Origin: Cyanobacterium stanieri PCC 7202
GTDB taxonomy: Bacteria; Cyanobacteriota; Cyanobacteriia; Cyanobacteriales; Cyanobacteriaceae
Direction of reading: 5' to 3'
Length of the DNA: 64,000 nucleotides
Assembly (NCBI GenBank): GCA_000317655.1
Contig: CP003940.1
Coordinates: 1,869,547 to 1,933,546, forward strand
Positions 9,616 to 22,818 of this stretch are shown here, piece by piece. Position 1 is the stretch's first letter. Every line of letters starts with the position of its first letter. The position numbers and the translations under genes are program-made. Below the pieces are notes generated by a model. It did not search any database, had not been told where the DNA came from, and saw nothing but the letters and a program-made list of their open reading frames with translations.

Positions 9616-10710
9616 ATGTTAAGAGCAGGAATTGTCGGACTCCCCAACGTAGGAAAATCAACCTTATTTAATGCCGTAGTAGCCAATGCCAAAGCCGATG
9701 CGGCGAACTTCCCCTTTTGTACCATTGAGCCTAATGTGGGAGTTGTAGCCGTGCCTGATGAGCGTTTAGATGTACTGGCAAAAATATCTAACTCCGCCAA
9801 AGTAGTCCCTACCCGCATCGAATTTGTGGACATTGCAGGGTTAGTCAAAGGTGCTAGTAAAGGGGAGGGGTTGGGAAATCAATTCCTTGCTAATATTAGA
9901 GAAGTAGATGCCATTATTCATGTAGTCAGATGTTTTGACAGTGATGATATTATCCATGTTTCTGGGTCAGTGGATCCAGTGCGTGATATGGAGGTTATCA
10001 ATTTAGAATTATCCCTCGCTGATTTAACTCAAGTTGAGCGCCGAGTGGAAAGACTCAAAAAACAAGCCAAAAGCAACAATAAGGAAGCTGTGGCGGAAAT
10101 GGAAATTTTAGAGAAAATTTTGCCTATCCTCAATGAGGGCAAAGCCGTTAGGGAATTAGAATTTACCCCCGAAGAAGAGGAAATTATCAAGCCCCTTGGT
10201 TTATTAACCTCAAAACCTGTTATCTATGCCGCCAATGTTAGTGATGAAGATTTAGCCACAGGTAACCAATGGGTAGAGGGTGTAAAAGCAGAAGCTACCA
10301 AACAAAATGCCATGGTTGTCATCGTTTCCGCGCAAGTGGAATCGGAGTTAGTAGAGTTAGGGCCAGAGGAAAAGGCAGAGTTTTTAGAATCTTTGGGAGT
10401 TGAAGAGGGAGGTTTGCAGTCTTTAATTAGGGCTACTTATGAATTACTCGGATTGCGTACCTATCTCACCACTGGAGAAACTGAAACTAGGGCATGGACT
10501 ATTATTGCGGGAATGAAAGCACCTCAAGCGGCAGGAGTTATTCATTCTGATTTTGAACGGGGTTTTATTCGGGCTGAAACTGTTGCTTATAATGATTTGG
10601 TTAGTTGTGGCAGTATGGGGGCTGCCAAAGAAAAGGGTTTGGTTAGGGCTGAAGGTAAGGAGTATGTGGTGCAAGAGGGGGATGTTTTATTGTTCCGTTT
10701 TAATGTTTAG
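9616..10710 (+). CDS. ychF: YchF/OLA1-type ATPase (redox-regulated, ribosome-associated)
   Basis: The 364 residues match the full length of the family. Visible motifs are the P-loop GLPNVGKST (8-16), the G3 region DIAGLVKGASKGEGLGNQFL, the NxxE-type base motif NVSDED, and a C-terminal TGS domain (FERGFIRAETVAYNDLV). YchF hydrolyses ATP, binds ribosomes and modulates translation under stress. The ATG at 9616 gives the standard N-terminus. The gene stands alone and ends before a HIP1-based terminator. Confidence 0.97.
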   Translation: MLRAGIVGLPNVGKSTLFNAVVANAKADAANFPFCTIEPNVGVVAVPDERLDVLAKISNSAKVVPTRIEFVDIAGLVKGASKGEGLGNQFLANIREVDAIIHVVRCFDSDDIIHVSGSVDPVRDMEVINLELSLADLTQVERRVERLKKQAKSNNKEAVAEMEILEKILPILNEGKAVRELEFTPEEEEIIKPLGLLTSKPVIYAANVSDEDLATGNQWVEGVKAEATKQNAMVVIVSAQVESELVELGPEEKAEFLESLGVEEGGLQSLIRATYELLGLRTYLTTGETETRAWTIIAGMKAPQAAGVIHSDFERGFIRAETVAYNDLVSCGSMGAAKEKGLVRAEGKEYVVQEGDVLLFRFNV

Positions 10711-19740: not shown

Positions 19741-20931
19741 GTGAAAATACTGGTACTAGCATGGGAATTTCCGCCGAGAATAGTAGGGGGTATTGCTCGT
19801 CATGTAGCAGAATTATATCCTGAAATTGTTAAGTTAGACCATGACATTCATCTTATCACTGTGGAGTTTGGTAGCGCCCCTGCCTATGAACAGGTAGAAG
19901 GAATCAAGATTCATCGTGTGCCTGTGGCACCCCATGATCATTTTTTTGATTGGGTACATAATATGAATCGAAGTATGCAACATCAAGCCCACAAATTAAT
20001 TAATCATATTGGTACTTTTGATCTAATTCATGCCCATGATTGGTTGGTAGCCGAAAGTGCGATCGCCCTTAAACATCAGTATAAAATACCTTTAGTAGCC
20101 ACCATCCACGCCACGGAATACGGCAGACACAACGGCATCCATAACCATAGCCAAGCCTATGTATCTAGTCAGGAAGGCAATTTAATCTATAACGCATGGC
20201 GAGTAATTGTCTGTAGTAGTTATATGCGCGAAGAAGTCCATCGAGCTTTTAACTGTCCTTGGGATAAAATTGATATTGTGTATAACGGCATTCGGGCGGA
20301 AAAAAAACAACATCCCCCCCATTTTGATAAACAAGCATTTCGCCGTCAATATGCCGCCGATGATGAAAAGATAGTTTACTACGTGGGTAGGATGACTTAT
20401 GAAAAGGGTATTCAAGTATTATTAAATGCCGCTCCCCAAATTTTACGAGCCACAGGCTATAAAGCCAAATTTATCATTATTGGTGGTGGTGATACCAGTA
20501 ATATCAAAGCCCAAGCCGCTAGATTAGGAATTTGGGATCGATGTTATTTTACAGGGTTTATGTCTGATGAAGATCTCAATAAATTTCAAACCATCGCTGA
20601 CTGTGCAGTTTTTCCTAGTTTATACGAACCTTTTGGCATTGTTGCCCTCGAAAGTTTTGCCTCTCGGGTGCCTGTGGTGGTTTCTAATACGGGGGGATTG
20701 CCAGAGGTGGTACAACACGAGAAAACAGGTATCACTACCTATGCCAATGATTATAATTCCCTTGCTTGGGGAATTTTACAAGTGTTGCAAAACCCAGACT
20801 ATGCCAAAATTTTGGTAGCTAATGCTTATCAAGATTTAAAAGACAGGTTTAGGTGGAGTGACTTGGCAAAACAAACTGTGGCAGTTTATACTCACATTTT
20901 AAAAGAGCGTCGCTCAGTTACGTGGCATTAA
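19741..20931 (+). CDS. GT4-family glycosyltransferase (glycogen-synthase-like fold)
   Basis: The 396 residues begin with WEFPPRIVGGIARHVAELYP, the donor/acceptor loop of GT-B enzymes. They contain YVGRMTYEKGIQVLLNAAP and the EX7E nucleotide-sugar motif in YEPFGIVALE. GT4 enzymes transfer sugars from nucleotide donors. This subtype is found beside polysaccharide or glycogen genes, but the acceptor is unknown. The GTG start follows AGGAAGGG with correct spacing. The 3' end overlaps the convergent radical SAM gene by four bases. Confidence 0.9.
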   Translation: MKILVLAWEFPPRIVGGIARHVAELYPEIVKLDHDIHLITVEFGSAPAYEQVEGIKIHRVPVAPHDHFFDWVHNMNRSMQHQAHKLINHIGTFDLIHAHDWLVAESAIALKHQYKIPLVATIHATEYGRHNGIHNHSQAYVSSQEGNLIYNAWRVIVCSSYMREEVHRAFNCPWDKIDIVYNGIRAEKKQHPPHFDKQAFRRQYAADDEKIVYYVGRMTYEKGIQVLLNAAPQILRATGYKAKFIIIGGGDTSNIKAQAARLGIWDRCYFTGFMSDEDLNKFQTIADCAVFPSLYEPFGIVALESFASRVPVVVSNTGGLPEVVQHEKTGITTYANDYNSLAWGILQVLQNPDYAKILVANAYQDLKDRFRWSDLAKQTVAVYTHILKERRSVTWH

Positions 20932-22079
20932 ACATTGATTTTTGCATCAAAAGTTAATTCTAAACCTCTGGGGATGGTGGAATATAACTCCAAAATAGCC
21001 TGGGCTTGGGGTGATTTTTGGATTTGTTCGATCATAAATTCGATCATAGGTTTCGCCACTGTACATTGTAAGTTGCCTTGGGTGTCGTAGGTGCGATCGC
21101 TCCCTTGCATTTCGGCAATGGGAATTTGATGGCATTTTTGATCAAATGGACAACTGCGACAGGTTTCCATTCTCATTTCTCTTCTGATGATGGTTTGATT
21201 ATGTTCTGGAGAATTGAGAATATCAGTTAGGGAGTTATCAAAGATATTACCCATATATCCTTCGGGTAGATATGCCTCTCCGTAGTTATACAAATCACCG
21301 TTAAGATTAACAATAGTTACCCATTCCCTTTTGGAGGGGTTAAAACGACGAATATTGCGATCTAAGAGATAGCGCACCGCTGCGATAAAATAATCCCAGA
21401 GAGGATAAATACGAATATGACTAGGATTTTTAAATTGTTCTAGGGTTACGGCTTTATATGCTTCGAGAATTTGCTCACTATCAATCATCAGGGGTTTCAT
21501 TCGCTCGGAAGGTTCTACACTATTAGAAACTGGTAGCATACGATAAGTAATCCCTAGATTGTTGAAAAAATGATAAGTGTTTAAGATATAGTCTATGTTG
21601 AGGGCATGAACGACATTTATCACCCCAAAAGGGATTTTTCGATCTATTAATTTTTGTAAATTATCTACCACTTGATCTCGAGAGTCTTTTCCTTTTATAT
21701 CAATCCTTTGTCCGCCAAATACATCAAAGGATACCCCCAATGATATATTTAACTCCTCTAATAAATCTAAGGTGCGATCGCTCAGATGAACTAAATTAGT
21801 TTGTAAACTATTACGAAAAGAAATCCCCCGCTGGGTTAAATACTTTTCCTGAAGACTACAAAAATCACGAAAATAATGCTCGGGTAATAATAAAGGTTCT
21901 CCCCCATGAAAAACAAATTCAGGGGAAAATTCTTGCTGTTGAAAATAGTCCGCAACATGGGCAAAAAAGGATTCTAATTGCTCCAATGACATTTTTTCCT
22001 TATTTCCCAATTCATCATATTCATAACAATATTCACAGCGTAAATTACATAATTTACTTAATTTAATAACAAAATACAT
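20928..22079 (-). CDS. Radical SAM/SPASM-type peptide maturase-like protein
   Basis: The 383-residue protein has the radical SAM cluster CNLRCEYC (Cys11, Cys15, Cys18), the HGGEPLLL motif, and a C-terminal SPASM/twitch-like Cys set (ETCRSCPFDQKCHQ, plus a later Cys). Proteins of this layout modify ribosomal peptides (thioether, cyclophane or epimer formation) or activate sulfatases. No sulfatase is nearby. The only partner in the same orientation is the exported Cys/Gly/Pro-rich protein 155 bases upstream, across two hairpins. A modification of that protein is inferred. Confidence 0.85.
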   Translation of the reverse strand: MYFVIKLSKLCNLRCEYCYEYDELGNKEKMSLEQLESFFAHVADYFQQQEFSPEFVFHGGEPLLLPEHYFRDFCSLQEKYLTQRGISFRNSLQTNLVHLSDRTLDLLEELNISLGVSFDVFGGQRIDIKGKDSRDQVVDNLQKLIDRKIPFGVINVVHALNIDYILNTYHFFNNLGITYRMLPVSNSVEPSERMKPLMIDSEQILEAYKAVTLEQFKNPSHIRIYPLWDYFIAAVRYLLDRNIRRFNPSKREWVTIVNLNGDLYNYGEAYLPEGYMGNIFDNSLTDILNSPEHNQTIIRREMRMETCRSCPFDQKCHQIPIAEMQGSDRTYDTQGNLQCTVAKPMIEFMIEQIQKSPQAQAILELYSTIPRGLELTFDAKINV

Positions 22080-22181
22080 AGTTATATAAACATATTATTT
22101 TTGATAATTTTTCTTACTTTATACGGACATAATATACTGCCTCCTTTATCAGTACATAGGTTAATAAATTGAAATTAAAAA

Positions 22182-22210
22182 ACTAGGAAAGAGATATATT
22201 CTTTCCTAGT
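22182..22210 (-). terminator. Intrinsic terminator/attenuator between putative precursor and radical SAM gene
   Basis: ACTAGGAAAG...CTTTCCTAGT is a perfect ten-base inverted repeat. On the minus strand it is followed by a T run (CTAGTTTTTTAATTTC). It would end most transcripts after the 194-residue protein gene and let a fraction continue into the maturase gene, as is usual when substrate is needed in excess. Confidence 0.8.
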
Positions 22211-22212
22211 CC

Positions 22213-22233
22213 ATAACATCCTGATGATGTTAT
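22213..22233 (-). other. Second hairpin directly after the exported-protein gene
   Basis: ATAACATC, a five-base loop, then GATGTTAT form a perfect eight-pair stem. The stem touches the stop codon of the 22234-22818 gene and precedes the T-tailed terminator. It may protect the 3' end of the short message. Confidence 0.6.
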
Positions 22234-22818
22234 TTAAAAGGATCGTTCAGGGAGGCTTCTATTGGGCAATCCGGGCAAATCACGCTGTGGGGTAATGCGA
22301 TCATTCGGTTCAATCATCGGCTCTGTAGGAGTCACCTGATTTAGAGAATCTCTGACATTTCCTCTGGGCATAATTTCCCCTTCGGGTTCATCAGGACAAC
22401 GTCCCCCAGGGCAATATTGAAGCCAGAGGGGTTCATCATCTCCGCCATCGTCTCCACCACAACCATCACAGCTAGTGACGATACCATTTTCAACGGTGAA
22501 AATGATGTTATTGTTGGTATAAGCACCATCTTGTAAGGGTGTTTGTCTGCCACCGTCAAAAAGAACGATCGCCCTTCCATCTTGTACAGCGATACTATTT
22601 CCCCCAGTTTGTCTCAAAATATTATCTAAGGGAACTGCACGAGTGCGAATTGCCGGGTCAATCTCTCTAATTTGGGCATGGGCAGAAGAAACCATTACGC
22701 TATCTAAAACGCTGGTCAACTGATGAAGCAAACCACTTCCTCCTGCGACAGTTAAACCTGTAACAGAGGCGATAATAATGGCAGTTTTCCCTTTGTTTTT
22801 GATGTTTTGTTTAGACAT
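22234..22818 (-). CDS. Exported Cys/Gly/Pro-rich protein, candidate substrate of the adjacent radical SAM enzyme
   Basis: The 194-residue protein is not one I recognise. It has a basic N-terminus, a long hydrophobic segment (about 13-40) and a probable signal cleavage after SAHA (about residue 48). A beta-rich stretch follows (DGRAIVLFDGGRQTP, NNNIIFTVENGIV). Next come the segment CDGCGGDDGGDD, then LWLQYCPGGRCPDEP with two more Cys, and a Pro/Arg-rich tail ending PERSF. Four Cys and aromatic residues lie in the Gly/Asp-rich core. It precedes the radical SAM gene in the same direction. Its role as substrate is inferred from position only. Confidence 0.65.
   Translation of the reverse strand: MSKQNIKNKGKTAIIIASVTGLTVAGGSGLLHQLTSVLDSVMVSSAHAQIREIDPAIRTRAVPLDNILRQTGGNSIAVQDGRAIVLFDGGRQTPLQDGAYTNNNIIFTVENGIVTSCDGCGGDDGGDDEPLWLQYCPGGRCPDEPEGEIMPRGNVRDSLNQVTPTEPMIEPNDRITPQRDLPGLPNRSLPERSF

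Follow-up and report, generated by a model that had tools for sequence, protein, structure and literature searches.

A two-gene locus in Cyanobacterium stanieri

Two consecutive genes on the minus strand of the Cyanobacterium stanieri PCC 7202 genome encode a 194-residue protein that appears to be exported and a 383-residue enzyme of the radical S-adenosylmethionine (SAM)/SPASM type. They lie within a 64,000-nucleotide stretch of contig CP003940.1 (positions 1,869,547 to 1,933,546), which is called the window below and whose own numbering is used here. The original prediction, made from the letters of the window, took the pair for an unnamed modification system in which the enzyme matures the exported protein. 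Both open reading frames are present as described, as are the segments CDGCGGDDGGDD and LWLQYCPGGRCPDEP of the first protein, and we now consider it quite likely that the genes are a precursor and its maturase and that they form a three-residue cyclophane (triceptide), a ring type known from a few other bacterial peptides. The relevant features are these:

22234-22818, minus strand: precursor gene for the 194-residue exported-looking protein, the putative maturase substrate (open reading frame; homologs lie upstream of maturases of clade A, defined below)
22675..22818, minus strand: signal-like N-terminus of the precursor, residues 1-48, with n-region, hydrophobic residues 13-27 and A-H-A|Q (sequence)
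22459..22662, minus strand: small folded domain of the precursor, residues ~53-120, helix plus beta strands (AlphaFold2 model)
22396..22470, minus strand: Cys-rich core (C117, C120, C136, C141) surrounding W132-L133-Q134 (sequence)
22417..22425, minus strand: predicted cross-link site W132-L133-Q134, aromatic-x-X, i to i+2 (motif statistics)
22333..22359, minus strand: C-terminal follower motif NVRDSLNQV (V-x-D-x-F/L-x-x-I), a helix that may serve for recognition by the maturase (pattern count)
22213..22233, minus strand: hairpin 1, with an 8-base-pair (bp) stem, directly 3' of the precursor stop codon (sequence)
22180..22212, minus strand: hairpin 2, with a 13-bp stem and a T-rich tail, terminator- or attenuator-like (sequence)
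20928-22079, minus strand: radical SAM/SPASM maturase gene, 383 residues (Pfam PF04055, PF13186)
22026..22049, minus strand: CxxxCxxC radical SAM cluster motif of the maturase, C11, C15 and C18 (invariant in 20/20 aligned relatives)
21063..21161, minus strand: SPASM cysteines C307, C310, C316 and C339 of the maturase (alignment)

Members of the precursor family have a four-part layout in which a signal-like N-terminus is followed by a small domain, a core that varies between members, and the C-terminal tail. In the window precursor, which has no meaningful NCBIfam family match, the N-terminus carries a hydrophobic stretch of 15 residues (mean hydropathy 1.85) with a charge of +4 ahead of it and A-H-A|Q at residue 48, consistent with the signal peptide originally proposed. 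This N-terminus is kept across clade A but is absent from the Bradyrhizobium precursor. The AlphaFold2 model has a predicted local distance difference test score (pLDDT) of about 78-88 over residues 61-120. The N-domain fold of PilB/PilT ATPases was considered for the small domain; because the best match (Z 4.0 over 66 residues) can reflect a common arrangement, no fold is claimed.

Read along the minus strand, the locus runs from the precursor (22818-22234) through hairpin 1 (22233-22213) and hairpin 2 (22212-22180) to the enzyme (22079-20928). The gap of 154 nucleotides between the genes holds the two tandem hairpins that had been described, one of them T-tailed, with TTTAATTTCA directly after the 13-bp stem of hairpin 2. 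Among 2000 shuffles, a stem of at least 13 bp arose in 18 and two stems of at least 8 bp in 175. The view that an attenuator hairpin is typical of such a system did not hold for this family. Among the homologous gaps compared, a T-tailed hairpin directly behind the precursor was seen in the window only, and only about half of the gaps have uninterrupted stems of at least 8 bp. The pair is flanked by a glycosyltransferase-like gene and a TamB gene, so that, as had been noticed, neither a protease nor an exporter is adjacent.

Pairing of precursor and enzyme across genomes

Two samples were searched, namely 60 genomes of relatives (the host, G000, included; the others are numbered G0xx and fetched loci L0xx) and an even draw of 386 cyanobacterial genomes. 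Clade A denotes the close enzyme clade that includes the window enzyme and scores above 500 bits in the larger set, and clade B is its sister clade. A clade-A enzyme occurs in 6 of the 386 genomes, and the precursor family occurs in exactly those 6. The proposed pairing is thus borne out for two genes that have no NCBIfam name. Four further genomes have clade B only (250-283 bits) and lack the window precursor family; in those inspected, a different type of precursor adjoins the enzyme. Among the relatives, the precursor is found in G000, G003, G004 and G026, which are the genomes with an enzyme of at least 54% identity.

With a single protein as query, a scan of GTDB contigs gave no matches. 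An alignment-based scan added clade-A enzymes from Nodularia, Rivularia, Plectonema (twice), Richelia, Calothrix rhizosoleniae, Nostoc and Bradyrhizobium uaiense, each with a precursor-like open reading frame directly upstream; that of Nostoc (L056) appears truncated. Plasmid records yielded no match at E 1e-30, and a viral collection yielded one distant match (31%) and four very weak ones. The original prediction would have been refuted by a radical SAM gene conserved without the exported protein. Instead, every clade-A enzyme examined, that of Bradyrhizobium included, has a precursor immediately upstream, in changing neighborhoods. No conserved genomic neighbors of the pair were found, and the glycosyltransferase and TamB genes lie far apart in G003 and G004. 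Because the pairing is kept while the flanking genes change, the precursor and enzyme genes travel as a unit.

The same variation in flanking genes, together with the terminator-like hairpin between the genes, could be taken to mean that an ordinary secreted protein merely sits beside an unrelated radical SAM gene. This is scarcely credible given the match in 6 of 386 genomes, the adjacency across phyla, a tandem array with two enzymes in G026, and the loss of the core where the enzyme is lost.

The host itself has five precursor matches and two enzyme matches: the window pair, a second pair with two precursors (C1:851-854 kb, L037), and two precursors with no enzyme nearby (L038 and L039). 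The site of L039 is informative. In G003 a complete pair lies between PPK2-like and LptC-like genes (L040); at the same site in the host, where the flanks are 79-85% identical, there is a 141-residue remnant whose domain and core are gone, with no trace of an enzyme. L038 and L041, whose fetched flanks contain no enzyme, still have the domain and the full set of four cysteines, but they carry LSAEYC at the site of L/MWLQYC in the paired window and G003 copies. Every Trp and the C-terminal V-x-D-x-F/L motif are missing from L038, L039 and L041. The numbers are small, and since the L038 and L041 genes are close relatives (80% identical), these copies represent two independent losses at most.

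Several other arrangements were observed. The G026 tandem array (L044 7031-14243) holds five or more precursors and two maturases that are almost identical, and the chimeric and truncated open reading frames between its blocks (e.g., 9624-10133) point to recent block duplication. Transposase-like genes lie ~700 bp from the second G003 pair (L042 2943-3709), with the same element at L041 10115-10881. Directly downstream of the second host pair, two nearly identical tandem genes of ~200 residues (L037 1717-3109) encode a coiled coil and a nuclease-like EIDVLVTNENHVLVVEIKS. The Bradyrhizobium uaiense precursor (L057 3620-3988) has 122 residues, four W-x-[Q/R] motifs and no signal-like N-terminus, which suggests horizontal transfer and loss of export.

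The core motif and the C-terminal follower

Although the cores of homologous precursors differ strongly, one rule runs through them: an aromatic residue is followed two positions later by a residue of the group D/E/N/Q/R/K. Counts were made on sets assembled by hand from fetched loci, including 14 clade-A precursors and 14 GrrA-type sequences. In clade A, 32 of 35 Trp residues obey the rule, against a composition-shuffle expectation of 13.9, and among offsets from -4 to +4 the deviation for Trp is confined to +2. In clade B the rule holds for 9/9 Trp and 51/71 Phe residues. For both clades the observed counts were reached in 0 of 2000 shuffles. GrrA is a triceptide precursor family that is already published, and the relatives' GrrA sequences, used as a positive control, gave W-x-N/D in 41/46 and F-x-N in 73/76 cases. 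In clade A the position two residues after Trp is occupied by Q (12 times), E (8), R (6), D (5) or K (1), never by Asn. Such a grammar is that of three-residue cyclophanes: the enzymes XncB, OscB and MscB are reported to cross-link residues i and i+2 (PMC11002830). In the window precursor W132 is probably cross-linked to Q134.

Both the CxxC and the WLQY segments had been proposed as modified sites. The second choice fits the nearly universal W-x-[D/E/Q/R] pattern. The first does not, as cysteines are often absent: the mature parts of the enzyme-linked clade-A precursors L054, L055, L057, L165 and L037b have none. Since cysteines are kept in Trp-less orphan copies and absent from several maturase-linked homologs, C117, C120, C136 and C141 do not appear to be a family-wide target, and their distribution makes modification at CxxC unlikely. 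This bears on whether the enzyme is a thioether-forming maturase of the sactipeptide or ranthipeptide type acting on the CxxC and CPGGRC cysteines. The Cys-rich window precursor, weak matches to the PapB and SCIFF-type models, and the sactipeptide enzyme 5wgg as a structural neighbor (Z 22.7) would suit such chemistry. Model scores far under cut-off and the cysteine distribution just described make it improbable.

A second shared element lies in the C-terminal tail. Of 28 clade A and B precursors, 21 contain a pattern of the form V-x-[D/E]-x-[F/L/W]-x-x-[I/L/V/A], compared with a shuffle mean of 1.5 and a maximum of 8. As the only segment outside the core that is visibly common to clades A and B, it is the best candidate for recognition by the enzyme. 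Some precursors of the G026 array consist of two modules, and a domain, a core and a follower are present in each; recognition is therefore argued to occur within the module, not at the N-terminus.

The enzyme, its likely reaction and its relatives

The SPASM-type radical SAM assignment stands, since the enzyme has the CxxxCxxC motif and exceeds the Pfam cut-offs for PF04055 (61.1 bits; cut-off 29.5) and PF13186 (26.4 bits; cut-off 21.5). It resembles many peptide-modifying families but reaches no curated NCBIfam cut-off. The best match is DynA (NF041298; 137.2 bits, cut-off 450), and the anaerobic sulfatase maturase model anSME (TIGR03942; 134.9, cut-off 349.45) comes second; DarE (NF038005; 104, cut-off 650) is close. 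The predicted structure (pLDDT 86.4) is closest to anSMEcpe (Z 26.8), with ChlB also matching (Z 25.3).

These fold and model scores could indicate a maturase of the anaerobic sulfatase type, which would convert a residue of a partner protein to formylglycine. The overall fold is indeed that of anSME (PDB 4k36-4k39). Cysteines equivalent to the ligands of auxiliary cluster II (Aux II) are kept (C307, C310, C316, C339), and those of Aux I are missing, as in GrrM; the assignment of these ligands is one we take from an alignment to anSMEcpe and general knowledge of its structure. The enzyme has CX2CX5C without the last Cys of the anSME CX2CX5CX3C, and the precursor core has no C/S-x-P/A-x-R sulfatase motif. 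In a maximum-likelihood tree, rooted at the midpoint only and with the alphaproteobacterial sequence on a long branch, the 11 clade-A sequences form one group (support 100/98), and clades A and B together stand apart from both sulfatase maturases and GrrM (100/99). Clustering with sulfatase maturases, which had been named as grounds for abandoning the proposal, was thus not seen, and we consider formylglycine formation very improbable.

DynA and DarE make Trp-based cross-links, and their rank invites a different idea, that Trp in the W-x-X core is joined by a C-O or C-N bond or to another residue, as in darobactin or dynobactin. One core reads WLWERD, in which motifs overlap. The scores nevertheless fall far below both cut-offs, the window precursor is a long exported protein, and the i+2 spacing is strict across many unrelated cores; we give such linkages an outside chance.

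The triceptide-type reading is best compared with two known systems. GrrA/GrrM (OscA/OscB; TIGR04260/TIGR04261) is likewise cyanobacterial, has an exported-looking precursor followed by a radical SAM/SPASM enzyme, shares the aromatic-x-X core grammar, and lacks the Aux I-equivalent cysteines. The signal peptide had been put forward as a difference from GrrA. It does not distinguish the systems, because the GrrA precursors of relatives (~117-150 residues) are also signal-like at their start. The differences lie elsewhere: GrrA has Asn/Asp at i+2 where clade A has Gln/Glu/Arg/Asp, and the window-type precursor has no Gly-rich repeats but an extra folded domain and the follower motif. The enzyme belongs to a different clade from GrrM, and the gene of ~300 residues that precedes GrrA in L130, L131, L133 and L137 has no counterpart in the window-type unit. 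No TIGR04260 matches were found in G000, G003 or G026. ChlB (ChlA/ChlB; PDB 9gm3, 9gmc) is the nearest PDB entry by sequence (E 1e-12), and the title cited in PMC12636437 calls it a "multiple cyclophane synthase". Only residues 3-158 align well with it, identity over the fold is 19%, and ChlB, unlike the window enzyme, is described as carrying a fused aKG-HExxH domain.

If the unit is of the triceptide type, the enzyme would engage the precursor in the cytoplasm through the V-x-D-x-[FL] helix, the small folded domain, or both. A 5'-deoxyadenosyl radical would take a hydrogen from the C-beta of the i+2 residue, Q134, and the resulting carbon radical would add to the indole ring of W132 to give a strained W-L-Q cyclophane. 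The modified protein may then leave the cytoplasm through its own signal sequence, in which case a dedicated exporter would not be needed, and it would function outside the cytoplasm. Gene pairing, co-occurrence, the motif statistics, a predicted enzyme fold and the missing motif in copies that lack an adjacent enzyme are what the data show; the reaction, the element recognized, the sequence of modification and export, and a role beyond the cytoplasm are inferred from them.

Several points weigh against this reading. The models for cyclophane maturases are under cut-off (YhhB 91 of 445 bits, AmcB 90.5 of 425, GrrM/OscB 85 of 310) and are outscored by DynA and anSME. Both the i+2 motif and the follower pattern were counted only after they had caught attention, and the paralogs are not independent. 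The Trp-to-i+2 grammar alone cannot separate C-C from C-O or C-N linkage. Moreover, the residues most often found at i+2 here, Gln and Glu, fall outside the partners listed in a review, namely Arg, Asn, Asp, Ser and Ala (PMC11002830).

Clade B extends the comparison to other cyanobacteria, Nocardia and Myxococcota. Its enzymes are 31-37% identical to the window enzyme, and its precursors have W/F-x-X cores and the same V-x-D-x-F/L follower. They differ in being short exported or Nif11-leader peptides that favor Phe over Trp. Relatives of the enzyme in Nocardia and Myxococcota (Nannocystis, Polyangium) are at L061, L072, L062, L068, L076 and L077, and the Nocardia terrae precursor has a PFHQFQQFHQGPFRQ repeat with F-x-Q grammar. 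A gene of ~300 residues often lies directly downstream of clade-B maturases (L058 5175-6086, L074 5258-6145, L066 5212-6123, L060 5205-6086). It matches no Pfam family (two copies tested) and contains HLDSWD...RRRHxSRNRICINLGREDRFFLFINL; its product resembles a further tailoring enzyme, and the His-x-Asp motif hints that it is perhaps oxygenase-like. In Thermosynechococcaceae MS004 (L070 1740-3899 and 3896-6112; the region is L169), two consecutive genes fuse a clade-B radical SAM enzyme to the domain of this ~300-residue gene, and a Nif11-type precursor adjoins them.

We found no earlier description of the family in the open literature searched, although the data tables of Nguyen 2020 and Sugiyama 2022 may list its enzymes. 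The unit would add an uncatalogued enzyme and substrate family to the triceptide type, with Gln, Glu, Arg and Asp as differing partner residues and with exported proteins that carry a folded domain as substrates. Two-gene units with built-in export would also be convenient for the heterologous production of stapled proteins. That clades A and B have a C-terminal motif in common suggests that the follower directs recognition, and W-x-[QERD] plus V-x-D-x-[FL] offers a search rule for further members. A broader picture, possible but somewhat doubtful at present, is that cyclophanes are placed on exported, partly folded proteins that keep their rings, and not on small peptides destined for release. 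A small beta domain would hold the Trp-x-Gln/Glu/Arg/Asp staple on the cell surface or within the periplasm, and the enzyme would be guided by a C-terminal follower helix common to the two enzyme clades across phyla.

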